Shown: in pieces, positions 24,391-50,716 of the stretch
Layout of the letters: each line of letters starts with the position of its first letter
Position numbering within the stretch: position 1 is the first letter of the stretch
DNA from: Actinomycetota bacterium
GTDB taxonomy: Bacteria > Actinomycetota > Rubrobacteria > Rubrobacterales > Rubrobacteraceae
DNA: 54,393 nt
Reading direction: 5' to 3'
Assembly: GCA_004563715.1 (NCBI GenBank)
Contig: SIRX01000016.1
Coordinates: forward strand, 1 to 54,393
The notes under the pieces: generated by a model
Told to the model about the DNA's origin: nothing
Database searches by the model: none
Seen by the model: the letters and a program-made list of their open reading frames with translations, nothing else
Program-made: the position numbers and the translations under genes

Positions 24391-25223
24391 GCACCGCGAG
24401 AAGTTCATCCCGGTCTCCCGGACGCTCCGGTCTCGGTGGGATCTTCGGCGGCGAGGCGTTGCAGCGGGGAACGGTGCTCATGTACCTGAGCCTCATCGTG
24501 CTCATACCGCTCGCCGCGGTGGTGTGGACCTCCGGCGAGGAGGGGTGGTCCGGGTTCTGGGCGGCCATAACCGCGCCGGAGGGGATGGCGGCCCTGAGGC
24601 TCACCTTCGGGGCGGCGTTCGTGGTGACGGCGATCAACGCCGTGGCCGGGACGCTTATCGCCTGGGTCCTGGTCCGCGACTCGTTCTGGGGCCAGGGAAT
24701 TTTCAACAGCGTGATAGACCTGCCCTTCGCCCTGCCGACCATCGTTGCCGGCCTGACGCTCCTGGCGCTCTACGGGCCGGGCAGCCCGGTGGGAATAGAC
24801 ATCGCCTACGCGCCGGTGGCGGTGGTCGTCGCGCTGCTGTTCGTGTCGCTGCCGTTCGTGGTGCGGGCCGTACAGCCGGTGCTGGAGGAGCTGGACACGG
24901 AGATGGAGGAGGCTGCGGCGTCCCTGGGCGCGAGCCGGTTCACCATCTTCCGGCGCATCATCCTGCCGACCCTCATGCCGGCGATCCTCGGCGGCTCCGG
25001 GCTCACGTTCGCCCGCTCCCTCGGGGAGTTCGGGGCGGTCGTCCTGGTCACCGGCAACATCGCCTTCGAGACACAGGTGGCCTCGGTCTACATCTTCGGC
25101 CAGATCGAGGGCGGAGATATCCCGGCCGCCTCGGCCGTCTCGGTGGTGCTGCTCGCGTTCTCGCTGCTGGCCCTTATCGGGTTGAACGTCGTGCAGGGGA
25201 GGTGGACCCGGCATGAAGAGTAG
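24387..25223 (+). CDS. cysT: sulfate ABC transporter permease CysT
   Basis: This 278-aa inner-membrane permease has six predicted helices after a polar N-terminus of about 25 residues. The cytoplasmic EAA loop is EEAAASLGASRFTIFRRIIL, which contacts the ATPase. LPFALPTIVAGLTLLALYG and TFARSLGEFGAVVLVTGNI are typical of CysT/CysU. The ATG overlaps the binding-protein stop (ATGA), and the gene overlaps cysW by 11 bases. It forms the transmembrane channel together with CysW. Confidence 0.94.
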   Translation: MSTARSSSRSPGRSGLGGIFGGEALQRGTVLMYLSLIVLIPLAAVVWTSGEEGWSGFWAAITAPEGMAALRLTFGAAFVVTAINAVAGTLIAWVLVRDSFWGQGIFNSVIDLPFALPTIVAGLTLLALYGPGSPVGIDIAYAPVAVVVALLFVSLPFVVRAVQPVLEELDTEMEEAAASLGASRFTIFRRIILPTLMPAILGGSGLTFARSLGEFGAVVLVTGNIAFETQVASVYIFGQIEGGDIPAASAVSVVLLAFSLLALIGLNVVQGRWTRHEE

Positions 25224-26007
25224 GCTCGCTCTCCGGGCCGTGGCGCTCGGGTACCTGGGGTTCCTCATCCTCCTGCCCGTGGGAGGGGTCTTCTGGATCA
25301 CCTTCCGGGACGGCTTTATGCCGTTCTGGGAGTCCATCACCACGCCCGAGGCCCTCAACGCCTTCTACCTGACGGTCTTTGCCGCCGTGGTGGCCGTAGT
25401 CGCCAACACGGTCTTCGGCGTGGCCGCGGCCATAATGCTCGTCCGGCGCCGCTTCCCCGGCAAGCAGCTGCTGAGCGCGCTCATAGACCTGCCGCTGGCG
25501 GTCTCCCCGGTCGTCGTGGGGCTCGCCCTGATCCTAGTCTACGGGACCTACGGCTGGTTCGGGGGCTGGCTGGCCGAGCAGGGGATACTGATAATCTTCT
25601 CGTTCCCGGGCATCATCCTGGCTACCGTCTTCGTCTCGCTGCCGTTCGTGGTGCGCGAGGTGGTGCCGGTGCTGCGCGAGGTCGGCACCGAGCAGGAGCA
25701 GGCCGCCTCTACCCTGGGGGCCTCCTCCTGGCAGACGTTCTGGCGGGTCACGTTGCCCTCCATCCGGCCCGGGGTCACCTACGGCATAGTGCTCACCACG
25801 GCCAAGGCCCTCGGCGAGTTCGGGGCCGTCTCGGTCGTGTCGGGGCGCATTATCGGCCGCACGGAGACGCTCACCCTGCACGTCGAGGACCGCTTCCAGG
25901 CGTTCGACCTCGCCGGGGCCTACGCCGCCTCGGTCGTTCTCGCCGTGCTCGCCCTGGGGACCCTGTTCGCCATGAACCTGTTAAAGCCCAAAGAAGAGAA
26001 AGCGTAG
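25213..26007 (+). CDS. cysW: sulfate ABC transporter permease CysW
   Basis: This is a 264-aa permease with six hydrophobic segments. The motifs are LPLAVSPVVVGLALILVYG, the EAA loop EQAASTLGASSWQTFWRVTLP and AKALGEFGAVSVVSGRIIGR, the last diagnostic for CysW. ATG 25213 lies inside the end of cysT, indicating translational coupling. The C-terminus ends in NLLKPKEEKA, 24 bases before cysA. Confidence 0.94.
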   Translation: MKSRLALRAVALGYLGFLILLPVGGVFWITFRDGFMPFWESITTPEALNAFYLTVFAAVVAVVANTVFGVAAAIMLVRRRFPGKQLLSALIDLPLAVSPVVVGLALILVYGTYGWFGGWLAEQGILIIFSFPGIILATVFVSLPFVVREVVPVLREVGTEQEQAASTLGASSWQTFWRVTLPSIRPGVTYGIVLTTAKALGEFGAVSVVSGRIIGRTETLTLHVEDRFQAFDLAGAYAASVVLAVLALGTLFAMNLLKPKEEKA

Positions 26008-26031
26008 CGCCAGTGCGGAAGGAGAGCCAGC

Positions 26032-26985
26032 ATGGGAATAACCGTTAGCAACATCTCCAAGAGGTTCGGAGACTTCGTAGCCCTCGACGACGTTTCGCTG
26101 GACATCCAGAACGGGTCGCTCACGGCCCTGCTCGGACCGTCCGGCTCCGGCAAGTCCACGCTGCTGCGTGTTATCGCGGGCCTGGAGAACCCGGACTCCG
26201 GCGAGGTGGTGATCTCCGGTCAGAACAAGACCGGCACGCCCCCGCAGCAACGCGGCGTGGGCTTCGTCTTCCAGCACTACGCAGCCTTCAAGCACATGAC
26301 CGTGGAGGACAACGTAGCCTTCGGGCTCAGGATCCGCAAACGCTCCAAGGACCAGACCAGAGAAAAAGTCCACGAGCTGTTGGAGCTCGTGCACCTCGAA
26401 GGCTTCGCCCACCGCTACCCGTCCCAGCTCTCCGGCGGCCAGCGTCAGCGCATGGCGCTCGCCCGCGCCCTGGCCATAGAGCCGGAGGTGTTGCTCCTGG
26501 ACGAGCCGTTCGGCGCGCTGGACGCCTCGGTGCGCAAGGACCTGCGGGCCTGGCTGCGGCGACTGCACGAGGACATGCCGGTGACCACCGTGCTGGTCAC
26601 CCACGACCAGGAAGAGGCGATGGAGGTCGCCAGCGAGATCGTGGTCATGAACGACGGGGCCATAGAGCAGATCGGCGATCCGACAGAGGTCTACGAGAAC
26701 CCGGCTACCGAGTTCGTGATGAGCTTTATCGGGCCGATAACCCGCTTGCAGGGCGCTTACGTCCGGCCCCACGACCTCCGCATCCAGCTGGAACCCAACG
26801 GCAAGACCTCCGAGGCCCGGGTAGAAGAGCTCTTACACCTGGGCTTCGAGGTCCGGGTGCACCTCCGCCTCTCCAACGACGAGGACATCTGGGCCCAGAT
26901 CACGCGCGACACGGCTTCGCAACTCGACCTGAAGAACGGCAAGACCGTCTACATCGTCACCGACCGCAGCAGGAGCTTCGGATAG
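26032..26985 (+). CDS. cysA: sulfate ABC transporter ATP-binding protein CysA
   Basis: This 317-aa ATPase energises sulfate/thiosulfate uptake. It has Walker [10 protein letters not shown] at 35-43, Q-loop [20 protein letters not shown], signature [15 protein letters not shown], Walker [17 protein letters not shown], the D-loop and switch His in [14 protein letters not shown] short TOBE-like C-terminal part starts at [11 protein letters not shown]. The gene has a GGAG-type ribosome site 24-30 bases after cysW and closes the transporter operon. Confidence 0.95.
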
Positions 26986-27015
26986 CAGCCCCCGGCTAAA
27001 AGACGTTGTAGCCCC

Positions 27016-27852
27016 ATGCTGGAGTGGACGCTGCGGTTTCCGGTCTCCGGCGTCGAGGCGAACCCGCTGGCGCTCTTGCTGGTGGCGTTCGTGGTCTCCG
27101 CGCTGTGCGCCCCGGCGGGGGTCTCGGGGGCGTTCCTGCTGCTGCCGTTCCAGGTGAGCGTCCTGGGCTTTACCAGCCCGGCGGTGAGCCCGACGAACCT
27201 GATCTACAACGTCCTGGCCACCCCCGGCGGGATCTACCGCTATTCCACGGACCGGAGCATCTCCTGGCCGCTGGCCCGCACGATAATCCTCGGTTCACTG
27301 CCGAGCGTCTTCGTGGGGGCCGCTCTCCGGGTGACGGTCTTCGCCGATCCCGAAGCATTCAAGGTCTTTGTCGGGGCGGTGCTGCTCTACCTCGGAGCCC
27401 GGCTCCTGCTGGAGGTGTTCGGCTATCCCGACCGCGCCCGGCCAGCCCGCGGTACGCCGCCCGGTACGCCGCCCGGTGCCGGCTCGGTGCTGGTCCTGGC
27501 CTTCCTCGTCGGCGTGGTCGGGGGCGTATACAGCATCGGCGGCGGGGCGATCATCGCGCCGTTCCTGGTCGCCATCTTCCGCATGCCGGTGCGGTCCGTC
27601 GCCGGGGCGGCGCTGGTGGGTACCTTCGTGACCTCGGTGGCCGGCATAGCGTTCTTCGAGCTGCTGGAAGCGCTGGGCGCCGGAGGAGAGGTTCCCGTCT
27701 CCCCGGACTGGCTATTAGGCGCGGTGCTCGGCGCTGGCGGGCTGGCAGGGACCTACGCCGGGACCTACGCCGAGCGCCTGCTGCCGGAGGCCGGCATCAA
27801 GGGCGTCCTGGGAGCCCTGGTATGTCTGCTCGCCGTCAGCTACCTTCTGTAG
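27016..27852 (+). CDS. TauE/SafE-family membrane permease (sulfite/sulfonate exporter type)
   Basis: The 278-aa membrane protein has about 8 helices in the two-repeat TSUP pattern: PAGVSGAFLLLPFQVSVLGF and SPTNLIYNVLATPGG in the first half, GVYSIGGGAIIAPFLVAIF in the second. A hydrophilic middle loop contains the small repeat GTPPGTPPGAG. It follows cysA by 30 bases on the same strand, so it is likely part of the sulfur operon, perhaps exporting sulfite or another sulfur oxyanion. Confidence 0.85.
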   Translation: MLEWTLRFPVSGVEANPLALLLVAFVVSALCAPAGVSGAFLLLPFQVSVLGFTSPAVSPTNLIYNVLATPGGIYRYSTDRSISWPLARTIILGSLPSVFVGAALRVTVFADPEAFKVFVGAVLLYLGARLLLEVFGYPDRARPARGTPPGTPPGAGSVLVLAFLVGVVGGVYSIGGGAIIAPFLVAIFRMPVRSVAGAALVGTFVTSVAGIAFFELLEALGAGGEVPVSPDWLLGAVLGAGGLAGTYAGTYAERLLPEAGIKGVLGALVCLLAVSYLL

Positions 27853-38517: not shown

Positions 38518-38901
38518 TTATGCACCGTCAAGGATCTCTCGGGGAACCCTGCGCGCCTTGCCGGTCGCGAGCTCTATGCAGCCGTGGCGGGTGTAGCCGC
38601 TGGAGACCACCTCTCCGCCCCGCGAGAGCGTGTAGGAGAAGCGGAGCGAGGCCCGGCCCAGGTCTGTCAGCTCGGTGCACAACGTAAGCTCGTCGTCGAA
38701 GAAGGCGGCTTTTCTGTAGAAGAGGCGCGCCTCGACGACCACGAAGCCGTAGCCCCGCTGCTCCAACTCCCGGTAGGAGAGGCCGGCTGCGCGGAGCCAC
38801 TCCACGCGGCCGACCTCGAAGTACGAAAGGTAGGAAGCGTTGTTTACGATCCCCTGGGCGTCCGTCTCGGAGTATCGGACGCGGATGGAAGTCTCGTGGA
38901 C
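38518..38901 (-). CDS. 4-hydroxybenzoyl-CoA thioesterase family (YbgC-like), non-canonical start
   Basis: The hotdog-fold thioesterase has about 127 aa. It opens HETSIRVRYSETDAQGIVNN, with catalytic Asp in the SETDAQG motif, followed by YLSYFEVGRVEWLR, normal for YbgC. No ATG, GTG or TTG lies in frame near the expected start. The GTC at 38901 (or ATC at 38886) stands where a start should be; the frame only reaches a standard start far upstream inside the crotonase gene. It follows crotonase by about 18 bases. It should hydrolyse short or medium acyl-CoA. A rare start codon or a sequencing error may be involved. Confidence 0.8.
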   Translation of the reverse strand, partial: VHETSIRVRYSETDAQGIVNNASYLSYFEVGRVEWLRAAGLSYRELEQRGYGFVVVEARLFYRKAAFFDDELTLCTELTDLGRASLRFSYTLSRGGEVVSSGYTRHGCIELATGKARRVPREILDGA

Positions 38902-38918
38902 GCTATGTCGGCTCTCGC

Positions 38919-39695
38919 CTACTGGCCCTTGAACTGCGGCTTGCGTTTCTCGGCGAAGGCGCCCATGCCCTCGCGTGCGTCCTCGGTGGCGAAAAGCAGG
39001 GCAAACTGGTCCGCCTCGTACTCCAGGCCGCTGATCAGGTCCACGTCCGGCGCCCGGTTGGTCGCGGTCTTGGCGTGCCGGACGGCGACGGGGCCGTTGG
39101 CGGCGATCTCCGCGGCCAGCTCCCGGGCCGCGTTCAGGGCTTCGCCCTGGGCAACGACGCGGTTGATCAGCCCTATCTCCTTCGCCTCGGCGGCGTCTAT
39201 GCGGCGTCCGGAGAAGATTAGTTCTTTGGCCAGGGCCGGCCCGATCAGGCGCGGCAGGCGCTGGGTGCCGCCCATGCCGGGCAGGATGCCCAGGCCGACC
39301 TCCGGGAAGCCGAAGAGGGCGTTCTCGGCGGCGATGCGGATATCGCAGGCGAGCGCCAGCTCGCACCCCCCGCCGAGGGCGAAGCCGTTGACGGCGGCTA
39401 TCGTGGGTACGGGGCTCCGGTCCAGGAGGGCCATCGCGGCGTGCCCGATCTCCGCGAAGCGTTTGGCCTCCAGGGGCAACATCTCGTTCATGGCCGAGAT
39501 GTCCGCGCCCGCGACGAACGAGCGCTCCCCGGCGCCCGTCACGATGATCGCGCGCGGCTCCTCCCGCTCCACGTCCAGCAGGGCCTGCCCGATCTCCTCG
39601 GTAACCTGCGGGTTGAGGGCGTTGAGCTTCTCCTGGCGGTCGATGGTCAGGACGGCGACGCCGTCCTCCCCACGCTCCAGTTTTACGTAGTCCAA
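38919..39695 (-). CDS. enoyl-CoA hydratase (crotonase)
   Basis: The 258-aa hydratase has both oxyanion-hole segments (SFVAGADISAM and VNGFALGGGCELALACDIRI) and the two catalytic Glu: one in GGCELALACD and one in FGFPEVGLGILPGMGGTQRL. The C-terminal AFAEKRKPQFKG is typical. TTG 39695 lies behind GGAG. It should hydrate crotonyl-CoA and related enoyl-CoA, and is co-oriented with the mutase subunit upstream and the thioesterase downstream. Confidence 0.92.
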   Translation of the reverse strand: MDYVKLERGEDGVAVLTIDRQEKLNALNPQVTEEIGQALLDVEREEPRAIIVTGAGERSFVAGADISAMNEMLPLEAKRFAEIGHAAMALLDRSPVPTIAAVNGFALGGGCELALACDIRIAAENALFGFPEVGLGILPGMGGTQRLPRLIGPALAKELIFSGRRIDAAEAKEIGLINRVVAQGEALNAARELAAEIAANGPVAVRHAKTATNRAPDVDLISGLEYEADQFALLFATEDAREGMGAFAEKRKPQFKGQ

Positions 39696-39719
39696 GATGT
39701 CTCCTTTGTCGGCGCCCGG

Positions 39720-40118
39720 CTAGCTGACCGGGACGGCTTCCCAGACGTACTCTACAGCTTTCCGGGTGGGAGTTCCGGGGGTGAAGACCTCGCCGACGCC
39801 AACCTCCTTGAGCTTCGGGATGTCCTCTTTCGGGATGGTGCCGCCGACGAAGACCAGGATATCGTCGGCCTCGTTCTCGCGGAGCAGCTCGACGACCCGG
39901 GGGACGAGCGTCATGTGGGCCCCGGAGAGTATGGAGATACCGATGGCGTCCACGTCCTCCTGGATGGCGGCCTCGACGACCTGCTCGGGCGTCTGGTGGA
40001 GCCCGGTGTATATGACCTCCATCCCCGCGTCGCGCAGGGCGCGGGCAATGATCTTGGCCCCCCGGTCGTGACCGTCGAGGCCAACCTTCGCCACCACCAC
40101 CCGTATCGTACGCTCCAT
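39720..40118 (-). CDS. cobalamin-binding subunit of methylmalonyl-CoA mutase type
   Basis: The 132-aa stand-alone B12-binding domain has the lower axial ligand motif DGHDRG (Asp15, His17, Gly20). [19 protein letters not shown] follows, then [20 protein letters not shown] and [10 protein letters not shown], as in the C-terminal part of methylmalonyl-CoA mutase. In this arrangement the catalytic TIM-barrel subunit is a separate gene, not found in the window. It lies 7 bases after the phosphofructokinase-like gene and 24 bases before crotonase. Its need for cobalamin links it to the uptake operon at the window start. Confidence 0.9.
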
Positions 40119-40125
40119 AATGCTT

Positions 40126-41295
40126 CTATTCTAACCTATCGAGGCCGTCCGCCGCCCCGGCGACGTTCGGGGGATGGGCGGAGAGATCCTCCCCCACCAG
40201 CGGCCGGAGCCACTCCTTGAACTCCCCGCAAATCTCACCGGGTGACGCCCTCCATTCCTCCGGGAGCGGTCGCTCCATCCCCGCCACGCTCTCCAGAGCA
40301 ACCTCCCGTACCTCCACCTCGTAGGGAGAGGAGCTCCTGCGCGCGAGGCCGGGCATCACGCAACTGCGGCCGGCGCGCAGCATCCGGGCCGCCTCTTCTC
40401 CCAGCATCCGGGCCTCCCGGCGGTCCACGGGCGAGGCCGCGAGCGCGCAGCTCCTCTGGGCCATCCCGAGCACCTCTCCCCGGGCGGGGAGCCCTAGTTC
40501 TCCGGCAATCAGCGAGGCCAGCTCCGGCGCCACGCCGCCGACGACCGGCTCGACGAGCGGAGCTTCCGCCCGCGACAGCAGCCCCTCGCTGACCACCACC
40601 ACGGCGTAGCCGTAGGTTCGGTACACCTCCTGTACATCGCCGAGGAACGCGCCCCGGTCGAAGCCGCGTTCGGGGACGTAGATCAGGTGCGGCGGGTCTT
40701 CCGGCTTCTCCCGGAGACAACCGCCGCCCATCGCCAGCCACCCCGCGTTGCGGCCCATCGTCTCCAGAACGCGTACCGACTCGAAGTTGCGCATGGACTC
40801 CAGGTCTTTGCCCACGTCCCGGACCGTGGCGGCGACGTACCGGGCGGCGCTGGCGAAGCCGGGCGCGTGGTCGGTGCCGACGAGGTCGTTGTCTACCGTC
40901 TTGGGTACGCCGAGCACGGCCAGCTCGTGTCCTATCCTCCGGGCGGCGCGTTCCATTTGCAGGCAGGCCCACATGGTCCCGTTGCCCCCGATGAGGACGA
41001 GCCCGTCTATGCCGCGGCGGGCGAGGTTCCGGGCGCAGCGGTCGAAGCCTTCTCCGTCCAGGGGCCACCGCCCGGCGCCGAGCCAGGCACCGGGCATCTC
41101 GGCTGCCTGCCGGCTACGGCCCACCACGGAGGGAGGCAGCGGAACCAGGCGGCCTTCGTCCAGCCCCTGCAAACCGTTTAAGGCGCCGTAGACCTCGCAG
41201 CCTGCGACGGCCGCCTCCAGAAAGCCGAACAGGCTAGCGTTGAACACCGCGGTCGGCCCGCCCGACTGCCCAACGGCCACCCGCATCCGGCTCAC
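40126..41295 (-). CDS. 6-phosphofructokinase-like sugar kinase (PfkA family, atypical)
   Basis: The 389-aa protein has the PFK fold: [38 protein letters not shown] at 103-110, [19 protein letters not shown] at 130-148 with the catalytic Asp, and [12 protein letters not shown]-type segment [10 protein letters not shown]. The nucleotide/metal loop is GGNG instead of the GGDG of ATP enzymes or GGDD of pyrophosphate enzymes, so the phosphate donor and substrate are uncertain. GTG 41295 follows AAGGAG. It lies 9 bases after an isomerase-like gene in the sulfonate cluster, so phosphorylation of the isomerised sulfosugar is a reasonable hypothesis; ordinary fructose 6-phosphate is the alternative. 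Confidence 0.8.
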
Positions 41296-41304
41296 CGCCG
41301 CTCC

Positions 41305-42651
41305 TTACCGGCCGTGCTCGACCACCTCCACACCCAGAAGGCGGCCGAGCTCCACGAAGTCCTGCGCCCAATCCCCGTAGACGAGGCCGTAGTGCGGCTC
41401 CCAGCCTTCTTCCAGGAGTTCGTGGAGCAGCCTCCGGGCCTCCACGTCGGGGCGCACCACCGCGCAGGTGCCGAAGAACTGCTGCGGCGCCTCTACCACC
41501 TCGCCCCGGAAGACCAGCAGCCGGAAGCGCTCCCCGCTGCGTCCGAGACGGGCTACCGTGACCCGGCCCGGCTTCAGCCCCATCTCCAGGGTAAGCCCGA
41601 TCCCTCGGTTGGGATGTACCCCCGCCCGCGCCCCGTAGACCGGGTTCGCCAGCGACGGCGCCCCAGACCCGTCGTGCCAGAAGACGAAGCCGCCAGACGA
41701 GCCGTCCAGGTATGCCAGGTCTCCCAGGTAGACCGGGGTCCCGGACAACACCTGGCCCGCGTACATGGTGATGGCGCCGTGTACGTCCGACTCGTTGGCC
41801 GCCGGGAGGCCGGCGTCTGTTAGCAGGGACATAGCCCCGTCGGCGGCCGCGCCGTATTCGTCGAAGAACTCCGGCCAGTTCCGGACCGCCAGCGCCCTGA
41901 GCCCGTTCTCCGCCGCGTACCGGCGCAGGTAGGCTGTAAGCCGAGCAAACCTCACGACCGTTTCCTGCCCGGGGTCTACGCCCGACACCTTCTCCCGAGT
42001 TTCCTCGACCACCGGCCTCCACTCCTCCTCCGGTACCTGGGCCGCGCCCTCGAAGACCTCGTTCAGGTCCACGCGGTGCAGCCGGGTCCCGAGAAGCCGC
42101 TGCAGTCCGCCTTCGTCCGTATCCGCAAAGAAAAAGCCCGGCGGGTGTTCACCGACCACCCCGACGACCAGCCGGGACAAGGCGCCGGCCACTTTCTGCA
42201 CCCGGATACTGCGCTCCAGCTTTTCCCTGAGCCCCACCTCCCCCGGGTCGCCGTACACGAAGGAGTAAGGGTACCGGAGGCCACGCAACAGGTGGGCGGC
42301 CGAGTTTCCTCCGGTAAGAGAGTTGAGCCGGAGACGGGCGCCCGTCTCCGGTTCGTTTACGGACCAGATCACCACGGGAACGCCCAGCCTCTCGGCCGCG
42401 AGCCGGACGAACCGGGCGTCCACGAAGGTGGTGAGCTGGACGACGGCCAGGTCCCCGGATACATGCTCCAGCGTCTTCTCCAGCTCCTCCGGCGACACGA
42501 TGATCTTCTCCGGCGCCGCCACCTCTACCGGGAGGCTCCGCAGATAAAGGAGGGTGTCTTCGAACACCCGGCGGGCGGAGTCTATGTCGAAGGTCTCCCG
42601 TCCGACGGGGAGGTAAGCAATCTTCGGCGGTCCCTCAAGAGTGTCCTTCAA
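41305..42651 (-). CDS. L-fucose/L-arabinose isomerase-like protein
   Basis: The 448-aa protein resembles the fucose/arabinose isomerase superfamily. There is an N-terminal Rossmann-like part (VVQLTTFVDARFVRLAAERL) with VVGEHPPGFFF, and a C-terminal half with ALAVRNWPEFFDEYGAA, AANESDVHGAITMYAGQVLS (metal-binding Glu), LGDLAYLD and FVFWHDGSGAPSLAN (His). No signal peptide is present. It sits between the sugar-binding protein gene and the phosphofructokinase-like gene with 18- and 9-base gaps. In context it may convert sulfoquinovose to sulfofructose; an ordinary aldose-ketose isomerase role is the alternative. Confidence 0.78.
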   Translation of the reverse strand: MKDTLEGPPKIAYLPVGRETFDIDSARRVFEDTLLYLRSLPVEVAAPEKIIVSPEELEKTLEHVSGDLAVVQLTTFVDARFVRLAAERLGVPVVIWSVNEPETGARLRLNSLTGGNSAAHLLRGLRYPYSFVYGDPGEVGLREKLERSIRVQKVAGALSRLVVGVVGEHPPGFFFADTDEGGLQRLLGTRLHRVDLNEVFEGAAQVPEEEWRPVVEETREKVSGVDPGQETVVRFARLTAYLRRYAAENGLRALAVRNWPEFFDEYGAAADGAMSLLTDAGLPAANESDVHGAITMYAGQVLSGTPVYLGDLAYLDGSSGGFVFWHDGSGAPSLANPVYGARAGVHPNRGIGLTLEMGLKPGRVTVARLGRSGERFRLLVFRGEVVEAPQQFFGTCAVVRPDVEARRLLHELLEEGWEPHYGLVYGDWAQDFVELGRLLGVEVVEHGR

Positions 42652-42669
42652 GCCGCCACCTTCCGCCTT

Positions 42670-44013
42670 CTACTCCGCACGCTCGAACATGCCCTGCATC
42701 TGCTCTTCGAGCGTCTGTACGGCCTGCTCGGCGGAGATGTTCCCGTTGAGCTGGGCGTTGAACTGCTCGGACATAACCAGGGATATGTCCGAGTAGTAAG
42801 GCGAGACGGGACGGGGACGGGCGTTCTGGATTGCCTCCTTGCCCCGCGCCGCCACCGGCACCTCGTCGAGCAACTCCTGGTCCTCGTACAGGCTCTGGAG
42901 GGTCGGCAGCCGCGTGCTCTCGACGGCGAAGGTCCTCTGTTGCTCCGGGGCGACCATGTACTCGATAAAAGTCCAGATCTGGTCCAGCTTGTCTTCGGAG
43001 GCGGCGCTCACGAAGAAGTTCCACCCGCCGAGGGCGCTGAAGCTCTCGTTGTCGGGGTCCATGACCGGGATGGGCGCGATGTCCACCTGCTCCGGCTGTA
43101 CGTTGGTCTCGTCTTCGTCGTACAGGAGTCCGTAGACAAAGGGCCAGTTGCGCATAAAGACCGCGTCGCCGCGGGTAAAGGCGGCCTGGGACTCCTGGGT
43201 GTTGTACTGACCCGTGGAGATCGGCGAGATGCCGTCCTCCAGCATGCTCCGGCGCATCTGCAGCCCCGCGATGGAGGCGGGGCTGTTTATGACGACTAGG
43301 TCGCCGTCCAAAACGTCGCCGCCCGCGTTCCAGATGTACTCCAGGGCGTCGGCGACGCCGCCCTCGTCCTGGCTGCCCTGGAACACGAAACCGTAGTTCT
43401 CCCCCGTGGCCTCCCGGACGCCGAGCGTCATCTCCTTCATCTCGTCCCAGGTCTGGGGCGGCCCGGAGAACCCGGCCTCTTCCAGCAAGTCCGTGCGGTA
43501 ATAGAACATGCCCGCGTCGGTAAACCAGGGCACACCCCACACCCGTCCCTCGTAAGTGATGGCGTCCACCTGTCCTTCGAGGTGGTCTCCCCGCATGTCT
43601 CCGCCGAAGCGGTCCGACAGGTCCAGTATGTAACCCGGAGCCGCGAGTTGGGCGGTCCAGATCACGTCGCCCCCGATCAGGTCCAGGGTCGGGGATCCCG
43701 CCTGGAACTCGGTTCGCAGCTGGTCGAAGTACTCGACGCTGTCCGACGGCATCTCCCGCCAGTCTACGCGCAGCTCGCCCTCGTGCTGCTGGTTGAACTC
43801 GTCGATGAGCTTGCGCAGCCCGCCGGCCTCGTCCGGGATAAAGCCAAACTGTATGGTTTCTTCTCCGCCGCCCTGTTGCTGTTGCTGCTCATCGCCGCCG
43901 CACCCCGCGACGCCGAGCAGGGCCGCCCCCGCGAGCCCGGCACCACCGAGCTTGAGGAACCTGCGCCGGCTGAACTTTCTGGAGAACGTTTTCAGGGCTT
44001 TTTCTCTACCCAT
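42670..44013 (-). CDS. extracellular sugar-binding lipoprotein of an ABC transporter (Tat signal)
   Basis: The 447-aa family-1 solute-binding protein has a twin-arginine signal (SRRRFLKLGGAGLAGAALLG) that also ends in a lipobox (VAGC, then a Gly/Asp/Gln-rich linker with QQQQQ). The mature part shows IQFGFIPDEAGGLRKLIDEF, YEGRVWGVPWFTDAGMFYYR and FSALGGWNFFVSAASEDK. Such proteins deliver mono- or oligosaccharides. ATG 44013 follows GGAAGGAGG. No permease or ATPase genes adjoin it, so partners are encoded elsewhere. Its context suggests a sulfoquinovose-containing ligand, unproven. Confidence 0.88.
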   Translation of the reverse strand: MGREKALKTFSRKFSRRRFLKLGGAGLAGAALLGVAGCGGDEQQQQQGGGEETIQFGFIPDEAGGLRKLIDEFNQQHEGELRVDWREMPSDSVEYFDQLRTEFQAGSPTLDLIGGDVIWTAQLAAPGYILDLSDRFGGDMRGDHLEGQVDAITYEGRVWGVPWFTDAGMFYYRTDLLEEAGFSGPPQTWDEMKEMTLGVREATGENYGFVFQGSQDEGGVADALEYIWNAGGDVLDGDLVVINSPASIAGLQMRRSMLEDGISPISTGQYNTQESQAAFTRGDAVFMRNWPFVYGLLYDEDETNVQPEQVDIAPIPVMDPDNESFSALGGWNFFVSAASEDKLDQIWTFIEYMVAPEQQRTFAVESTRLPTLQSLYEDQELLDEVPVAARGKEAIQNARPRPVSPYYSDISLVMSEQFNAQLNGNISAEQAVQTLEEQMQGMFERAE

Positions 44014-44089
44014 GTGCTCCTCCTTCCCTAATCCTTTCCCCCGAACGTCGTTGCAAATTCTGCTACATTTACGCGCTCACCTCGATCCT

Positions 44090-45154
44090 TCAAGCGGCCG
44101 CTGCTGGCAGGGGTACGCCGTACTGCCCGGCCAGCTCCGCGAGCTCTTCGACTACGGTCTCGGGAAGGGCGATGCCCTCCCGGGTTTTCTCTAGAAAGGC
44201 CCGGTAGCGCCTCTCCCCCGGATACAGCACCTCCTCCGCGCCCGCCGCCCGGGGCGTAGCCTTTATTTCCCCGATAAACTGATCCACCCTCGCGTAGTAC
44301 TCGTCCAGGGGCATCCAGCGCGCGATGTCCAGCAGGATAAAGCTGTGGCCGACGCCGGACGGCGAGGCTCCTTCTTCGTAGATGTTGTTGACGTGGGGAC
44401 CAAACGCGGCCCCGGAGAGCACGCCCGAGAGCATCTCCACGGCAAGGGCGAGCGCGTAACCTTTGGGGCCGCCGAGCGGCAGCACGGCCCCCTGCAAGGC
44501 CGCGGCGGCGTCGGTGGTCTCCCGGCCCTCACCATCCACGGCCCAGCCCGGGGGTATCGGCAGGCCCTGCTGGGCGGCGAGGATGATCTTGCCCCGGGCC
44601 ACGACGCTGGAGGACATGTCTACGATGACGGGCGGCTCCCGGCGGGTAGGGAAGCCGAAAGCTATGGGGTTGGTGCCGAAGTACGCTTTCCTGCCGCCCC
44701 ACGGGACGATGCCGGGCGGCGAGTTGGTGGTGGCGATCAGGGCCATCCCCTCCCGGCAGGCCATCTGGCAGTAGTAGGCTGCCGTCCCGAAGTGGTTGCT
44801 GTTGCGCACCGCGACCGCGGCGATGCCCGCCTCCCAGGCGACCGGTATCGCAGCTTCCAGGGCGCGGTAGGAGGCTACCTGCCCCAGCGCGTTGCCGCCG
44901 TCCACCCGCAGAACGGCCCCGGAGCGCTCCACCCGGACCTCGGGACGGGCGGAGATCCGGCCCTCCCGCACCCGCCGGGCGTAGATCGGCAGGCGGCTTA
45001 CCCCGTGGCTGTCCGTTCCTTCCAGGTTGGCCCGCACCAGGGAGTCCGCCACCACGCGGGCGTCTTCTGGCGGCAACCCGAGGCTCTCTAGAACCCCTTT
45101 ACAGAAACCGGTCAGCTTTGCCGGGTGGTAGCGTCCGATACCATCTCCTTTCAC
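44090..45154 (-). CDS. comC: Ldh2/MDH2-family dehydrogenase, probable (R)-sulfolactate dehydrogenase (ComC-like)
   Basis: The 354-aa NAD(P)-dependent 2-hydroxyacid dehydrogenase of the malate/L-lactate (type 2) family. Family motifs are EGTDSHGVSRLPIYARRVRE, AVRNSNHFGTAAYYCQMA (catalytic His), YFGTNPIAFGFPT and LGGPKGYALALAVEMLSGVL. The GTG start overlaps the slcC-like stop. The family includes malate, ureidoglycolate and sulfolactate dehydrogenases; placement beside SlcC-like and SuyAB genes favours interconversion of (R)-sulfolactate and sulfopyruvate. Specificity is inferred from neighbours. Confidence 0.8.
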   Translation of the reverse strand: MKGDGIGRYHPAKLTGFCKGVLESLGLPPEDARVVADSLVRANLEGTDSHGVSRLPIYARRVREGRISARPEVRVERSGAVLRVDGGNALGQVASYRALEAAIPVAWEAGIAAVAVRNSNHFGTAAYYCQMACREGMALIATTNSPPGIVPWGGRKAYFGTNPIAFGFPTRREPPVIVDMSSSVVARGKIILAAQQGLPIPPGWAVDGEGRETTDAAAALQGAVLPLGGPKGYALALAVEMLSGVLSGAAFGPHVNNIYEEGASPSGVGHSFILLDIARWMPLDEYYARVDQFIGEIKATPRAAGAEEVLYPGERRYRAFLEKTREGIALPETVVEELAELAGQYGVPLPAAAA

Positions 45155-46098
45155 CCCGCCAGGCAGAGCGAGGGCTCACCCCGTAACACCTTCACGACCT
45201 CTTCGGCGACCAGCACCGAGGTCTTTACCTGCGCCTCCTCCGTGAGGCCGGCGACGTGCGGGGTGAGCACCACGCGGCCGCTCTTCAACAGCGGGTTGTT
45301 CTCCCCCGGCGGTTCTTTCTCCAATACATCCAGTACCGTCCCGCCGATCAGGCCCTCGTCTATAGCCCGGGCCAGGTCTCCTTCGTCCACCACGCCCCCG
45401 CGGGAGGTGTTGATCAGCCAGGCGCCTGGTTTCATCTTCTGCAGTACCGGCCGCGAGAACAGCCCCCGCGTGGCCGCGTTCAGGGGCACGTGCAGGCTCA
45501 CGAAGTCGGCGGCGGCCAGCAGGGTGTTCAGGTCTACGAGCTCGACGCCGGTCTCGACTATCGGGTAGTCGTAGGGCGTCACGTAAGGGTCGTGGCCCAC
45601 CACCCTCATGCCGAAGGCCGCCGCCCGGCGGGCCACCCGGTGTGAGATCTCCCCCACCCCCACGAGCCCCAGGACTTTGCCGTGGACCTCGGAGCCGGTG
45701 AAGCGCCGCCGGTCCCAGCCCCCCGCCCGCACGTCCTCTGCGGCGCCCGGCAGGTCCCGCGAGACGTGGAGGACGGCGGCCATCACGTACTCGGCCACCG
45801 ACACCGCGTTGGCGTTCCGGGCGTAGACGACGGGCACGCCCCTCTCGCGGGCCGCTGCGAGGTCGATGTTGTCCAGCCCAACCCCGAGACGGCCCACGAC
45901 CTTGAGAGACGGAGCCCCCCTGATAAGCTCCGCCCCGACCCGGGTCTGGTTGCGGACGACGAGGGCGTCGGCGGCCCGCGCCTTTCCGCGGAGCCTCTCG
46001 GGGAACTCCCACAACCGGGGATCGTACTCGACGCTCCCGAAAGCCTCCAGTACCTCCAGGCCCTCGGGCCAGATCACCTCCGTAACCAGCACGTTCAC
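45151..46098 (-). CDS. slcC: D-isomer 2-hydroxyacid dehydrogenase, probable (S)-sulfolactate dehydrogenase (SlcC-like)
   Basis: This 315-aa NAD-dependent dehydrogenase of the phosphoglycerate dehydrogenase family has VVGRLGVGLDNIDLAAARER, ANAVSVAEYVMAAVLHVSRD, the nucleotide loop GLVGVGEISHRVARRAAAFG, NTSRGGVVDEGDLARAI, EKEPPGENNPLL (catalytic Glu) and LTPHVAG (catalytic His). The dinucleotide loop has GVGEI where most members have GxGxI. SlcC of sulfolactate-degrading bacteria is in this family; pairing with the ComC-like gene would invert (S)- to (R)-sulfolactate via sulfopyruvate. The GTG start overlaps the gntR stop. Confidence 0.82.
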   Translation of the reverse strand: MNVLVTEVIWPEGLEVLEAFGSVEYDPRLWEFPERLRGKARAADALVVRNQTRVGAELIRGAPSLKVVGRLGVGLDNIDLAAARERGVPVVYARNANAVSVAEYVMAAVLHVSRDLPGAAEDVRAGGWDRRRFTGSEVHGKVLGLVGVGEISHRVARRAAAFGMRVVGHDPYVTPYDYPIVETGVELVDLNTLLAAADFVSLHVPLNAATRGLFSRPVLQKMKPGAWLINTSRGGVVDEGDLARAIDEGLIGGTVLDVLEKEPPGENNPLLKSGRVVLTPHVAGLTEEAQVKTSVLVAEEVVKVLRGEPSLCLAG

Positions 46099-46838
46099 GC
46101 CGGCTCTTCCTCGCGCGTGCCGGCCGGGTCTCTCCCGGGCCTCGCCACCGCCGACTCCACGGACCGCAGGTGGTCCAGCATGGCCTCGCGGGCGGCGGGG
46201 GCGTCGCGGGCCTCTATCTCCTCCAGTAGCCGGGTGTGCTCGTCGAGCGAGAGCCGCGCCCGGCCCGGAATCCGCAAGGTCTCGTGCCGCGCCGTGGCCA
46301 GGAGGTCGAGGAGGGTGAGCATCACCCGCACGAGCACCAGGTTCTGCGACGCCTCGGCAATGCCCACGTGGAACTGGGCGTCCCGCTCGCTGAGAATTTT
46401 AGGGTCCCCCGGGTGCCGGGCGGCATCCTCCAGTATCCCGCGCAGGCGCTCGACGTGGTGGGCGCTCCGGCGCTGGGCGGCCCACCCAGCGGCCTCGACC
46501 TCCAGCGTCCGGCGGACCTCGAACAGGTCCTGCAACCCCGCGCCCCGCAGGGGAAACGCGCCGGACAGCCCTCCGAGGCGGCCCATCATATTCTCCTCGG
46601 CGCTCGCCACGAAGATGCCCGAACCCCGCCGCACCTTGAGGATGCCGCGCCCGGAGAGGGTCTTGACGGCGTCGCGCAGGGCCGTGCGGCTCACCCCGAA
46701 CTGCTCCGCCAGCACCCTCTCGGGCGGCAGCCGGTCTCCAGGCCTGAGCCGGCCGCCGATGATAGCGTCGGTTATCTGGGAGATGATCCCCTCCCCTAGC
46801 GACCCGCTGCCGGGTACCGTCTTGAAGGTTACGTCCAT
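46095..46838 (-). CDS. GntR/FadR-family transcriptional regulator
   Basis: The 247-aa regulator has an N-terminal winged helix (GEGIISQITDAIIGGRLRPG, DRLPPERVLAEQFGVSRTAL, LSGRGILKVRRGSGIFV) and a C-terminal all-helical FCD effector domain (LFEVRRTLEVEAAGWAAQR, DAQFHVGIAEASQNLVL, EHTRLLEEIEARDAPAARE). The His/Asp set of metal-binding FCD domains is at least partly present. It is inside the sulfolactate operon and overlaps slcC by four bases. Its likely operator is the palindrome at 48319-48331. Confidence 0.88.
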   Translation of the reverse strand: MDVTFKTVPGSGSLGEGIISQITDAIIGGRLRPGDRLPPERVLAEQFGVSRTALRDAVKTLSGRGILKVRRGSGIFVASAEENMMGRLGGLSGAFPLRGAGLQDLFEVRRTLEVEAAGWAAQRRSAHHVERLRGILEDAARHPGDPKILSERDAQFHVGIAEASQNLVLVRVMLTLLDLLATARHETLRIPGRARLSLDEHTRLLEEIEARDAPAAREAMLDHLRSVESAVARPGRDPAGTREEEPA

Positions 46839-46852
46839 CTCCCCGGCGAGCG

Positions 46853-48004
46853 CTAGGCGCTCGGGTAGAGCTTGGTCATGACGAACTCCCTGTGGCCCAG
46901 GACCTCGGCCGCGGTGAGCCGGCCTTCCGCCGTCCGGCGGACGTTGTCCATCAGCAGCTCCCCGGCTTCGGGAAGCGTGATCTCCCGGGAGAGCAGGCCG
47001 CTCACGTCCACGTCTACGTGCTCGGCCATGGAGGCCGCCGTGTCGGGGTTGGCGGTTATCTTGATGACCGGCACTATAGGGTTGCCCACCACGTTGCCCT
47101 GGCCCGTGGGGAAGAGGTGCACGACGGCCCCGCCCGCGGCCATGAGCGTGACGTGCTCAGCGGCCGCCGAGGAGCTGTCCATGAAGTAGAGCCCGGGGCC
47201 GTCCTGCGGGGCCTCCGCCGGTCCCAACACCCCGACGACCTCCCGGCTGCCGGTCTTCTCGATGTTCCCAAGGGCTTTCTCCTCGATGGTGGAGAGCCCG
47301 CCCTTTATGTTGCCCTGGGTGGGCTGGGAGCCCAGCAGGTCCACCCCCCGGGACTCGATGCCCGAGACGTAAGCCTCGTAGGTCTCCATGAACCTCTCCC
47401 GCAACTCCGGGGTGGCCATCCTGTCGGCGATGAGGTGCTCGCCACCCGTAAGCTCCGAGGTCTCTCCGAAAAAGACCGTGCCCCCCTCGTCAACGAGCCG
47501 GTCCACGCACACCCCGACCGTCGGGCACGAACCCAGCCCCGTGGTGGTGTCCGACTCGCCGCACTTGAGGCTGACCACGACCTCGGAGAGGTCCACCGGC
47601 TCCCGCCGCTTTTCTGAAGCCCCCTGCACGAACTCCTTCGCCGCCCACGACGCCCGGCGAACCGTCTCCAGGTCTCCGTAGCCCTCTATCGAGAACGCGG
47701 CCACGGGCTTGCCGGTCTCCGCGATGCCCCCGGCAACCCTCTCCGTCCAGTTGTCCTCGATCCCGATGACCACCACCGCCGCGACGTTGGGGTTGGCGCC
47801 GGTGCCGATCATGGTCCGGAAGTGCAGCTCCAGGTCTTCCCCGTACTGCAAGCGCCCATACGAATGCGGCAGGGCCAGCGTCCCCCGGATGTGGCTCGCG
47901 ACCGCCTCGCACGCCGCGTTAGAGATGTCGTCCACCGGCAGTATCGCGACGTGGTTCCTGACCCCCACCCGGCCGTTCTCCCGACGGTACCCGTAGAGCT
48001 CCAC
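46853..48004 (-). CDS. suyB: (R)-sulfolactate sulfo-lyase beta subunit (SuyB; UxaA family)
   Basis: The 383-aa UxaA-family catalytic subunit removes sulfite from (R)-sulfolactate to give pyruvate. It opens with [20 protein letters not shown], followed by [58 protein letters not shown] (metal-binding Cys of the KCG-SD motif) and [23 protein letters not shown] 48004 begins 2 bases after the suyA stop; GTG 48013 is an alternative. Altronate and galactarate dehydratases share the fold, but the split small/large genes and adjacent sulfolactate dehydrogenases favour SuyB. Confidence 0.82.
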
Positions 48005-48006
48005 CC

Positions 48007-48285
48007 CTACCACCTCGCGCTCTTGAGGTTGTGGGTGTGCACGTAGTCGCCCACCGAGAGGCCATCCGGAGCCTTGCCGATCTGGACGCCGTACTCGACG
48101 ACCGCACCCCCCGGCTCGCACTCCCGGACGGCGACCTTGTGCCCCAGCGGGACATCTCCCCCGGCGACCACCTCGACCGTAGAGTCATCGTCCATGTAAA
48201 CCCCCACCACCCGCTCACCAGCCCCTATCTTCGAGGTCGCTACCCCTACGTGATCACCGCGCTTGTGTACGAGAAACTTGTGCAC
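48007..48285 (-). CDS. suyA: (R)-sulfolactate sulfo-lyase alpha subunit (SuyA; SAF domain)
   Basis: This small subunit of 92 aa is a SAF-type beta-clip domain: [54 protein letters not shown] and the C-terminal THNLKSARW, closely following SuyA/UxaA-N proteins. The His of GHK and HTHN are family-conserved. GTG 48285 lies close to a GGAGGAGAGG ribosome site. It is the first gene of the operon and is divergent from the GH31 glycosidase gene. Confidence 0.82.
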
Positions 48286-48331: not shown

Positions 48332-48451
48332 AGTTTTGTGAGATACTACCAAAGCGATGTCTATGGCGCAACAACGCCCGGGGAGGGCTGGGGGTTTGCC
48401 GGGGAGTAGCGGGGAGCCCGCGGACGGGCCCCAGCCTTCGGGACGGCCGGT

Positions 48452-50716
48452 TTGAGGGCTTCCGGTTGGATCGGACACCTTCTGATCGCCGCCGTGGGCG
48501 TGGCGGCGTTGTTCGCCGTCCGGGCGCTCGCGGCCCGGAGGAACAGCATAGACAGAGGGGACCTGAGGGTAGTCTCCGGCGTGCCGTTCGGCCCGTTTCG
48601 CGTCGGTAGCTTCGTCGTCTCCCTGACGGCTGACGACGAGCCGTCTGGTTTCGTCCTGCGCGTAACGCATGTCTCTAGCCCGGACCGCGTACTCTGGGAG
48701 AGCATCCCCGGCCGGAACTTTGTCTCCGCCGCCCGGGGCCAGGAAACCGTCCGGGACCGCAGGTCCCACTACTCCATCAGCGACAGAATTCTAGAGCGGT
48801 ACCCGGACCAGACAATCGAAAGCGTCGAGGAGAACGAAGGTTCGCTGCGGATCTCCGGCCGGCTCGCCGGGAGAAAAGGAGCCGGACAGGTCGGCTACCA
48901 GCTAACGTTCTCGCCCGCCTCGGACGGGCGGCTGCGCTTCGAGGCCGAGGCCGACGGAACCTGTAACCGGGTCTACCTCACCTACGCCTCCTCCACGCGG
49001 GAGCGTTTCTTCGGCTTCGGCGAGCAGTTTACCTACCTCGACCCGAAAGGCAGAAAGCTGCCCATCTTCGTCGGCGAGCAGGGCGTCGGCCGGGGGGCGC
49101 AGCCCGCGACCCTGCTCGCCAACCTCCGGGCTGGGACCGGTGGCTGCTGGCACACCACCTACGCGGGCGTGCCCCACTACATAACCAGCGGGTTGCGCTC
49201 CCTGTTCCTCGAAAACTACGAGTACTCCGCCTTCGACCTGCGCAAAAAAGACGAGGTGCGGGCGGAGGTCTTCTCCTCGGAGATGGCCGGGCAGATCGTC
49301 CACGGGCGGTCCCCGGAGGAGTTGATCGAGGCGTACACGGAGTACGCCGGCCGGATGCGGCCGTTGCCGGACTGGGTTTTGGGCGGGGCCGTCGTGGGGT
49401 TGCAGGGGGGCCTGGAGAAGGTGCGGCGGACCTACGAGGAGCTGGTAGCGTCCGGCGTCCCCCTCGCCGCGCTCTGGCTCCAGGACTGGGTGGGCCAGCG
49501 CCAGACCAGCTTCGGCTCCCAGCTCTGGTGGAACTGGGAGCTGGACGAGGAACATCACCTGGTTTGGGACGTCTTCGGCAGGGACCTGCTAGCCGGAAAC
49601 GTGCGGCTGATGACCTACATAAACCCCTTCGTGGTCGACGTTTCGGGCAAAAAGAGCTATCGCCGCAGCCTGATCGAGGAGGCCGCGCGAGAGGGTTACC
49701 TGGTGCGGGACAGCCGGGGTGAGCCGTACATGATCCCCATAACGGACTTCTCCGCCGCCCTCGTGGACCTCACCAACCCGGCGGCCCGGGAGTGGCTCAA
49801 ACAACTCATAAAAGAGATGATCTCCGGCGGCGTCTCCGGGTGGATGGCGGACTTCGGGGAAGGTCTGCCCTACGACGCCGTCCTCCACTCGGAAGAGAGC
49901 CCGAAGACCTACCACAACCGCTACCCCGAGGAGTGGGCAAAGGTGAACCGCGAGGCCGTAGAAGAGGCTGGCAGGGAAGGCGACGTAGTCTTCTTCCACC
50001 GCTCAGGGTACACCAGAAGCCCCAGATACGCCGCCCTCTTCTGGGCCGGGGATCAGCTCGTGAGCTGGGACCGGCACGACGGCTTGAAGAGCGCGATAAC
50101 GGGCCTGCTCTCCAGCGGTTTCTCCGGCTACAGCCTCAACCACTCCGACACCGGCGGCTACACCGCCATCGAGTTCCCCCCGCTGAGCTACCGTCGTTCC
50201 AGGGAGTTGCTGATGCGCTGGAGCGAGCTTTCGGCCTTCACGGTCGTCATGCGCACCCACGAGGGAAACCGGCCCGAGACAGGCTACCAGGTCTACTCGG
50301 ACCAGGAAACCCTCTCTCACTTCTCCCGGATGGCCCGGGTCTATAAAGCGTGGGAGCCCTACAGAAAAGAGCTGGTGGTGGAGGCGGCAGAAAAGGGGCT
50401 GCCGGTGATCCGGCATCCCTTTATCCACTACCCGGAGGACCGGGAGGTGTGGGACCTGCTCTACCAGTTCATGGTCGGCCGGGAGTTCGTGGTGGCGCCG
50501 GTGGTAGAGCCGGGCGCCCGGCAGGTTCAGGCGTACCTGCCGGAGGGCAGGTGGACGCACGTCTGGAGCGGCAGGCCCTACGGCTCGGTAGGCGGGAAAG
50601 GCGCGTGGGTGGAGGTAGAAGCCCCGCTGGGAGAACCCGCCGTCTTCTACAGAGAAGGCAGCGCCGCCGGTCTCGCCTTCCGGCGGGAGTTGGGGCGTAT
50701 GGGGCTTCTAGGCTAG
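48452..50716 (+). CDS. GH31 glycosidase, YihQ (sulfoquinovosidase)-like, membrane-anchored
   Basis: The 754 aa begin with a signal-anchor helix (about 7-24, followed by AARR), then the GH31 N-domain and catalytic barrel. The nucleophile is Asp467 in GWMADFGEGLP and the acid/base Asp534 in FWAGDQLVSWD. LGIQGG-, AQDWSG- and HSDIGGY-type segments of E. coli YihQ correspond to GLQGG (Gln318), LQDWVG (Gln344) and HSDTGGY (Tyr570). At the sulfonate-binding Arg of YihQ this protein has Gln357 (TSFGSQLWWNW) while the Trp (360) is kept. TTG 48452 gives the anchor; the ribosome site is weak. It likely cleaves an alpha-glucoside outside the membrane; sulfoquinovoside specificity is uncertain. Confidence 0.82.
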   Translation: MRASGWIGHLLIAAVGVAALFAVRALAARRNSIDRGDLRVVSGVPFGPFRVGSFVVSLTADDEPSGFVLRVTHVSSPDRVLWESIPGRNFVSAARGQETVRDRRSHYSISDRILERYPDQTIESVEENEGSLRISGRLAGRKGAGQVGYQLTFSPASDGRLRFEAEADGTCNRVYLTYASSTRERFFGFGEQFTYLDPKGRKLPIFVGEQGVGRGAQPATLLANLRAGTGGCWHTTYAGVPHYITSGLRSLFLENYEYSAFDLRKKDEVRAEVFSSEMAGQIVHGRSPEELIEAYTEYAGRMRPLPDWVLGGAVVGLQGGLEKVRRTYEELVASGVPLAALWLQDWVGQRQTSFGSQLWWNWELDEEHHLVWDVFGRDLLAGNVRLMTYINPFVVDVSGKKSYRRSLIEEAAREGYLVRDSRGEPYMIPITDFSAALVDLTNPAAREWLKQLIKEMISGGVSGWMADFGEGLPYDAVLHSEESPKTYHNRYPEEWAKVNREAVEEAGREGDVVFFHRSGYTRSPRYAALFWAGDQLVSWDRHDGLKSAITGLLSSGFSGYSLNHSDTGGYTAIEFPPLSYRRSRELLMRWSELSAFTVVMRTHEGNRPETGYQVYSDQETLSHFSRMARVYKAWEPYRKELVVEAAEKGLPVIRHPFIHYPEDREVWDLLYQFMVGREFVVAPVVEPGARQVQAYLPEGRWTHVWSGRPYGSVGGKGAWVEVEAPLGEPAVFYREGSAAGLAFRRELGRMGLLG

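Follow-up and report, generated by a model that had tools for sequence, protein, structure and literature searches.

Gene content of the window

The window analysed here is a 54,393-nucleotide stretch of DNA from an actinomycete of the Rubrobacteraceae. It contains on its plus strand an open reading frame of 754 amino acids with a TTG start (48452-50716) that encodes a GH31 protein. This gene is divergent from a suyA-like gene, with 166 bp between the two, and the minus-strand genes run contiguously from 48285 to 40126, some overlapping by a few bases. The features are as follows.

48452..50716, plus strand: GH31 protein with the sulfoquinovosidase (SQase) fold, predicted to be exported, with a QQQWY pocket, Gln357 at the YihQ Arg301 site, Asp467 as nucleophile and Asp534 as acid/base (family profiles, YihQ alignment, AlphaFold, Foldseek)
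48461..48541, plus strand: N-terminal hydrophobic helix, residues 4-30, signal or anchor (AlphaFold model, clade comparison)
49520..49522, plus strand: codon CAG for Gln357, at the YihQ Arg301 position (alignment and codon read)
48007..48285, minus strand: SuyA-like small subunit, (R)-sulfolactate sulfo-lyase (sequence match)
46853..48121, minus strand: SuyB-like subunit (GD_AH_C), true start probably near 48010 (Pfam and identity)
46095..46838, minus strand: GntR/FCD regulator (NCBIfam and Pfam profiles)
45151..46098, minus strand: D-2-hydroxyacid dehydrogenase, candidate (S)-sulfolactate dehydrogenase, SlcC-like (profiles; role by context)
44090..45154, minus strand: Ldh_2 family protein, candidate (R)-sulfolactate dehydrogenase, ComC-like (NF040650 is the top NCBIfam match, below cut-off)
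42670..44013, minus strand: sugar ABC substrate-binding lipoprotein (profiles)
41305..42651, minus strand: SqvD/SftI-like sulfoquinovose (SQ) isomerase (NF048012, 494.6 bits; cut-off 700)
40126..41295, minus strand: PfkA-family kinase, candidate sulfofructose kinase SqiK (profiles)

The SuyB-like protein shared 62-66% identity with proteins of Cupriavidus pinatubonensis and Paracoccus, and SuyAB of these genera has been described as sulfolactate sulfolyase (PMC9594981). Altronate dehydratase was ruled out as the function of the UxaA-like genes, because plasmid relatives were the closest (60-69% identity, compared with 38-42% for haloarchaeal UxaA) and because the two loci of Cupriavidus/Paracoccus SuyB relatives that we viewed carry hpsN/hpsO in one case and a sulfate exporter in the other. 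The sulfolactate sulfo-lyase module (SuyA, SuyB and two dehydrogenase families) is complete at the window locus.

As in sulfo-EMP2 (SqvD, SqiK and SqiA; PMC9594981), an SqvD-like isomerase gene and a PfkA-family kinase gene lie side by side, with the isomerase scoring below the NCBIfam cut-off. Its NF048012 score was higher than those of homologs beside YihQ-type genes (415, 287 and 207) and lower than that of the Sporosarcina protein (815). Unlike sulfo-EMP2, the window cluster is from an actinomycete, is combined with candidate sulfolactate dehydrogenase genes and SuyAB, and lacks a linked SqiA class II aldolase, SLA dehydrogenase/reductase and DUF4867 gene; ABC permease genes are also absent from the cluster. 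The window's genome has a single PF01116 match, next to gap-pgk-tpi-like genes where a contig ends. According to reviews, sulfo-EMP2 is a pathway of Firmicutes (PMC12890257). In this actinomycete window, SqvD-like, SqiK-like, sulfolactate dehydrogenase and SuyAB genes were seen in a single run (minus strand, 40126-48285). Directly downstream of the kinase gene lie genes for a B12-binding domain, an enoyl-CoA hydratase and a thioesterase (minus strand, 38518-40118). On the plus strand at 23377-27852, roughly 12 kb away from the SQ cluster, inspection by eye showed genes of a sulfate-type ABC transporter with a TSUP-like permease gene after them.

Fold and active site of the GH31 protein

The open reading frame scored 832 bits against the YihQ profile NF007746/PRK10426 (cut-off 553), and its Pfam matches, PF01055 and PF21365, place it in GH31. 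Its AlphaFold model, built with 54 related sequences, had a mean pLDDT of 94.2, and Foldseek gave target TM scores of about 0.95 to SQases compared with about 0.6-0.7 to other GH31 enzymes. The closest PDB relatives were the SQases 8r56, 5aed, 5ohy and 6pnr. By alignment to E. coli YihQ, the catalytic pair corresponds to Asp405 (Asp467) and Asp472 (Asp534), and the pocket residues Gln318, Gln344, Gln357, Trp360 and Tyr570 correspond to Gln262, Gln288, Arg301, Trp304 and Tyr508, respectively. The stretch around Gln357 is ungapped (SFG-SQ-LWWNW in the window protein and SFG-KR-VMWNW in YihQ) and its flanking residues are conserved (SFG..LWWNW), so the assignment of Arg to Gln is safe. A preliminary description of this DNA had claimed both the Gln in place of the Arg and the retention of the catalytic Asp pair and the other four pocket residues; the alignment and the CAG codon bear this out, and all of its residue numbers were correct.

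In known GH31 SQases the sulfonate is held by an Arg, and ordinary GH31 α-glucosidases have a DxD-type carboxylate at the site of YihQ Gln288. The window protein retains the Gln288-type residue, and no Asp, at the site of this carboxylate. It shares with E. coli YihQ, the A. tumefaciens SQase, BmSQase and E. rectale SftG a common fold (TM about 0.95), the Asp pair and the equivalents of Gln262, Gln288, Trp304 and Tyr508; it differs from them in the Gln at the Arg301 site, in its N-terminal export or anchor segment and in belonging to a separate clade, which is also marked by an LWWNWELD motif and by an extended loop that follows the INPF strand. The fold and the four pocket equivalents of YihQ-type SQases are thus present, and the Arg and a place inside the YihQ clade are not. 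The window protein is SQase-like in its anatomy and, judged strictly on these features, does not count as a YihQ-type SQase.

Distribution of the Gln variant

The protein was present in 11 of 39 Rubrobacteria genomes. Nine other Rubrobacteraceae homologs extend over the site, and every one of them has the Gln, while the paralog in the window's own genome (L002) has Arg. A scan of named genomes yielded 80 relatives, which belong to Chloroflexota, Spirochaetota, Myxococcota, Hydrogenedentota, Pseudomonadota, Bacillota, Bacteroidota, Actinomycetota and one Haloferax. In a tree built without trait columns, whose rows are a search-ranked sample rather than a census and several of whose deep branches are poorly supported, a YihQ clade of 19 rows was set apart from a 60-row group that contains the window protein, and about ten rows fell between the two. 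In the 60-row group, with both Asp kept, the pocket was QQQWY in 42 rows and QQRWY in seven. The tree requires about seven Gln/Arg changes, which indicates that this residue switched more than once. A sequencing or annotation quirk of a single gene was ruled out as the source of the Gln, which is clade-wide. Judged from these sequences, the exported clade (about 60 sampled proteins from many phyla) is a sister to the cytoplasmic YihQ-type SQases and is apparently uncharacterised. We found no earlier description of the Gln variant in the open literature, where our coverage was incomplete and a prior report is possible.

Four residues, Trp359, Trp372, Arg500 and Arg638, are near-invariant in the exported Gln clade and not in YihQ-type enzymes. 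Searching the alignment for a replacement Arg, we found the clade-specific Arg500 and Arg638 and a mostly kept Arg near position 405, and could assign no clear Arg or Lys substitute beside the sulfonate.

Gln at the Arg301 site was also found in five cytoplasmic spirochaete proteins of the YihQ type. The loci of four of these (L085, L092, L096 and L100) carry transketolase pairs, RpiB-like and/or DUF4867 genes, and such genes mark sulfo-TK or related clusters (PMC9594981). Like the window protein, these four combine a Gln at the Arg301 site with otherwise conserved pocket residues; unlike it, they have no N-terminal anchor and branch with YihQ rather than with the exported clade. Since these predicted YihQ-clade proteins lie in sulfo-TK-type loci, Gln alone is no sign of lost SQase function, and we did not accept the view that Gln marks a protein as not an SQase.

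N-terminal segment and predicted export

The N-terminus of the window protein is MRASGWIGHLLIAAVGVAALFAVRALAARRNS. The hydrophobic helix noted in the preliminary description was recovered in the model (residues 4-30), and most clade relatives have a hydrophobic, Tat or lipobox N-terminus at the equivalent place. A true start downstream of the helix was checked and is not favoured: upstream of the helix, as far back as the stop at 48407, TTG 48452 is the sole start, and most clade relatives have a matching N-terminus. An internal GTG at codon 15 or 17 would truncate the helix. A possible AxA cleavage site can be read at Ala25-Leu26-Ala27, and several Arg follow the helix, so that the helix may be either a signal peptide that is cleaved off or an anchor that stays uncleaved; an inward-facing orientation of the helix is still conceivable from the sequence.

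About three quarters of the 60-row group have a 16-residue uncharged hydrophobic stretch some 60-90 residues before the conserved LW motif, and a few further rows have a Tat or lipobox motif, as counted with a simple script, not with dedicated signal-prediction software. The same script found no hydrophobic, Tat or lipobox segment in any of the 19 YihQ-clade rows, and no clear hydrophobic N-terminal segment in the relative from a second Rubrobacteria genus (genome G014). These counts support export as a predicted property of the clade and not of the window gene alone.

Linkage to sulfoquinovose genes

In the second Rubrobacteria genus, on one contig, the gene for a Gln-type GH31 protein is convergent with an isomerase-like gene, which is followed by SqiK-like, SuyB and SuyA genes; the isomerase-like gene is a weak SQ isomerase match (134 bits). 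SuyB was found in nine Rubrobacteria genomes, and most Rubrobacteraceae with the Gln enzyme have no isomerase. SQ isomerase, yih or sulfo-TK-type genes were present at all 17 YihQ-clade loci with enough flank and at two of 46 exported-group loci, both from Rubrobacteria; these markers were hand-picked and relatives are not independent, and a Fisher p is only a guide to this difference. Genome-wide, an SftI-grade isomerase was absent from all 24 exported-clade genomes and present in all four controls. A YihS homolog was found in one of the 24 (Haloferax, 32% identity) and in both of two controls. Because of the low linkage, the absence of SftI-grade isomerase and the near absence of YihS, the exported clade is generally not tied to isomerase-dependent SQ pathways, to which this comparison was confined.

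These counts fit the main rival reading, to which we give less than an even chance, in which the exported QQQWY clade acts on an α-glycoside without a sulfonate, such as an α-glucosyl- or α-glucuronosyl-lipid head group or glucosylglycerol, and the window gene is an ordinary member that adjoins SQ genes by chance or local recruitment. Besides the 44 of 46 loci without SQ linkage and the genomes without SftI-grade isomerase (24/24) or YihS (23/24), the near-invariant Trp359, Trp372, Arg500 and Arg638 show that the clade has changed at more than the Arg301 site, and the SQase role could fall to the Arg paralog in the same genome. However, apart from the Arg301 site the SQase pocket is intact, down to the Gln in place of the usual carboxylate; SQ linkage occurs in two Rubrobacteria genera in two arrangements; and cytoplasmic spirochaete homologs in sulfo-TK-type loci also have the Gln.

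The Arg paralog and GH188

The second exported-type GH31 copy of the genome (C139:29206-31425; L004:14207-16456) is 64% identical to the window protein and has the Arg and a full QQRWY pocket. It is divergent from sulfatase-like, Fe-ADH-like and ALDH genes. No SQ genes were found beside it in the stretch read, and the adjoining ALDH, considered as a possible SLA dehydrogenase, was only 34% identical to the Bacilli enzymes of sulfo-EMP2-type loci. In one reading the paralog with its complete pocket is the working SQase and the window gene is a duplicate, relaxed or redundant, that now has little function. This reading is very unlikely in our view, given that the window gene is intact, retains all catalytic residues and groups with conserved Gln orthologs of other genera, and that the paralog has no SQ genes next to it in the region read.

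GH188 SQases with an altered sulfonate-binding residue have been described, in clusters that carry genes for a fucose isomerase, an SF kinase, a PGDH-like protein and sulfolactate sulfo-lyase (PMC11465081). They resemble the window system in a variant residue at the sulfonate site and in a similar gene cluster, but GH188 has an unrelated NAD-dependent fold, and at the window locus a GH31 enzyme takes its place. No close SqgA-like GH188 protein was found in the window's genome with a putative GH188 from locus L130 as query (best match 31%, partial), and GH188 was ruled out as the SQase of this genome.

Proposed role

The local evidence, namely a pocket kept bar one residue, the divergent SQ/sulfolactate cluster and the second genus, favours release of a sulfosugar outside the cell for the window gene, and the clade-wide evidence calls for caution on an SQ role. 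We propose, with a probability of about 0.5, that the window GH31 is an exported SQase variant feeding the adjacent cluster. The SQase fold, four of the five pocket residues, the Gln288-type residue where other GH31 enzymes have a carboxylate, the SQ/SuyAB cluster, the closeness of SuyB to proteins from sulfonate loci, the G014 locus, the spirochaete Gln proteins, the lack of a close GH188 and the clade-wide hydrophobic N-termini count for this proposal. Counting against it are linkage at two of 46 exported-clade loci, no SftI-grade isomerase in 24 of 24 genomes, most Rubrobacteraceae without an isomerase, the gaps in the cluster, and the weak isomerase and unclear N-terminus of G014. In addition, the Arg paralog could be the real SQase, and loss of the Arg that contacts the sulfonate is expected by itself to weaken SQ binding. 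The preliminary description had suggested an altered substrate, either another glucoside or a differently bound sulfosugar. For this member, the genes 166 bp away (SQ isomerase-like, SqiK-like, sulfolactate dehydrogenase candidates and SuyAB) favour the sulfosugar; for the clade as a whole, the missing linkage outside Rubrobacteria and the genomes without SftI-grade isomerase and mostly without YihS speak against an SQ role. The clade-wide spread of the Gln, the Arg paralog and the sulfonate gene cluster went unnoticed in that description.

We computed the fold, pocket, helix, cluster and its second occurrence, and we infer the substrate, the mode of sulfonate binding, the localisation and the flux through the cluster. 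As an exported SQase variant, the protein would be held at the membrane by its N-terminal helix or released after it. Outside the membrane it would act as a retaining GH31 α-glycosidase of the SQase type, with Asp467 as nucleophile and Asp534 as acid/base, on α-sulfoquinovosides such as sulfoquinovosyl glycerol from cyanobacterial or plant sulfolipid. Trp360, and Tyr570 via water, would bind the sulfonate, with Gln357 as a neutral hydrogen-bond donor in the Arg's stead. The freed SQ would be taken up via the binding protein (42670-44013) and pass through the SqvD-like isomerase and the SqiK-like kinase, and then through an aldolase and an SLA dehydrogenase encoded outside the cluster. Sulfolactate would then be epimerised by SlcC/ComC and cleaved by SuyAB to pyruvate and sulfite. 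The cluster could in this way let one actinomycete convert SQ fully to pyruvate and sulfite.

A substrate other than SQ-glycerol, either a glycoside of another sulfosugar or the sulfolipid itself, with Gln357 fitting a differently placed anionic group, is improbable. A sulfonate-degrading cluster adjoins the gene, the predicted extracellular placement suits a lipid or polymer, and a sulfofucose pathway that ends in sulfolactate sulfolyase has been reported (PMC12421959), but the adjoining isomerase matches the SQ isomerase family and nothing points directly to another sulfosugar.

Beyond the proposed SQase variant at this locus, the exported QQQWY clade may, tentatively, represent a separate and widespread GH31 specificity of an extracellular enzyme for a 6-modified or lipid-linked α-glycoside to which no GH31 enzyme has so far been assigned; its Rubrobacteria members would have been recruited to sulfolipid breakdown, binding the sulfonate without the Arg. 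The yihQ family serves as an environmental marker of SQ-degrading microbes (PMC13219744). With a large exported Gln sister clade, either YihQ-based annotation miscalls many non-SQ genomes as SQ degraders, or extracellular SQ release is far commoner than thought.

Related genes were also seen at other loci. One locus (L122, G026:C19) has the sulfolactate module and a weak SQ-isomerase-like gene (129 bits), with no GH31 gene found there. In three loci of other Rubrobacteria (L123, L124 and L125), SuyAB adjoins sulfite-oxidase-like and TSUP-like genes, as judged by eye. At L130, on a plasmid from the phototroph Ca. Chlorohelix allophototropha, an SQ-isomerase-like gene (343 bits) is accompanied by a PfkA-type kinase, ALDH, sugar ABC genes, Gfo/Idh/MocA and a sulfite/nitrite reductase.
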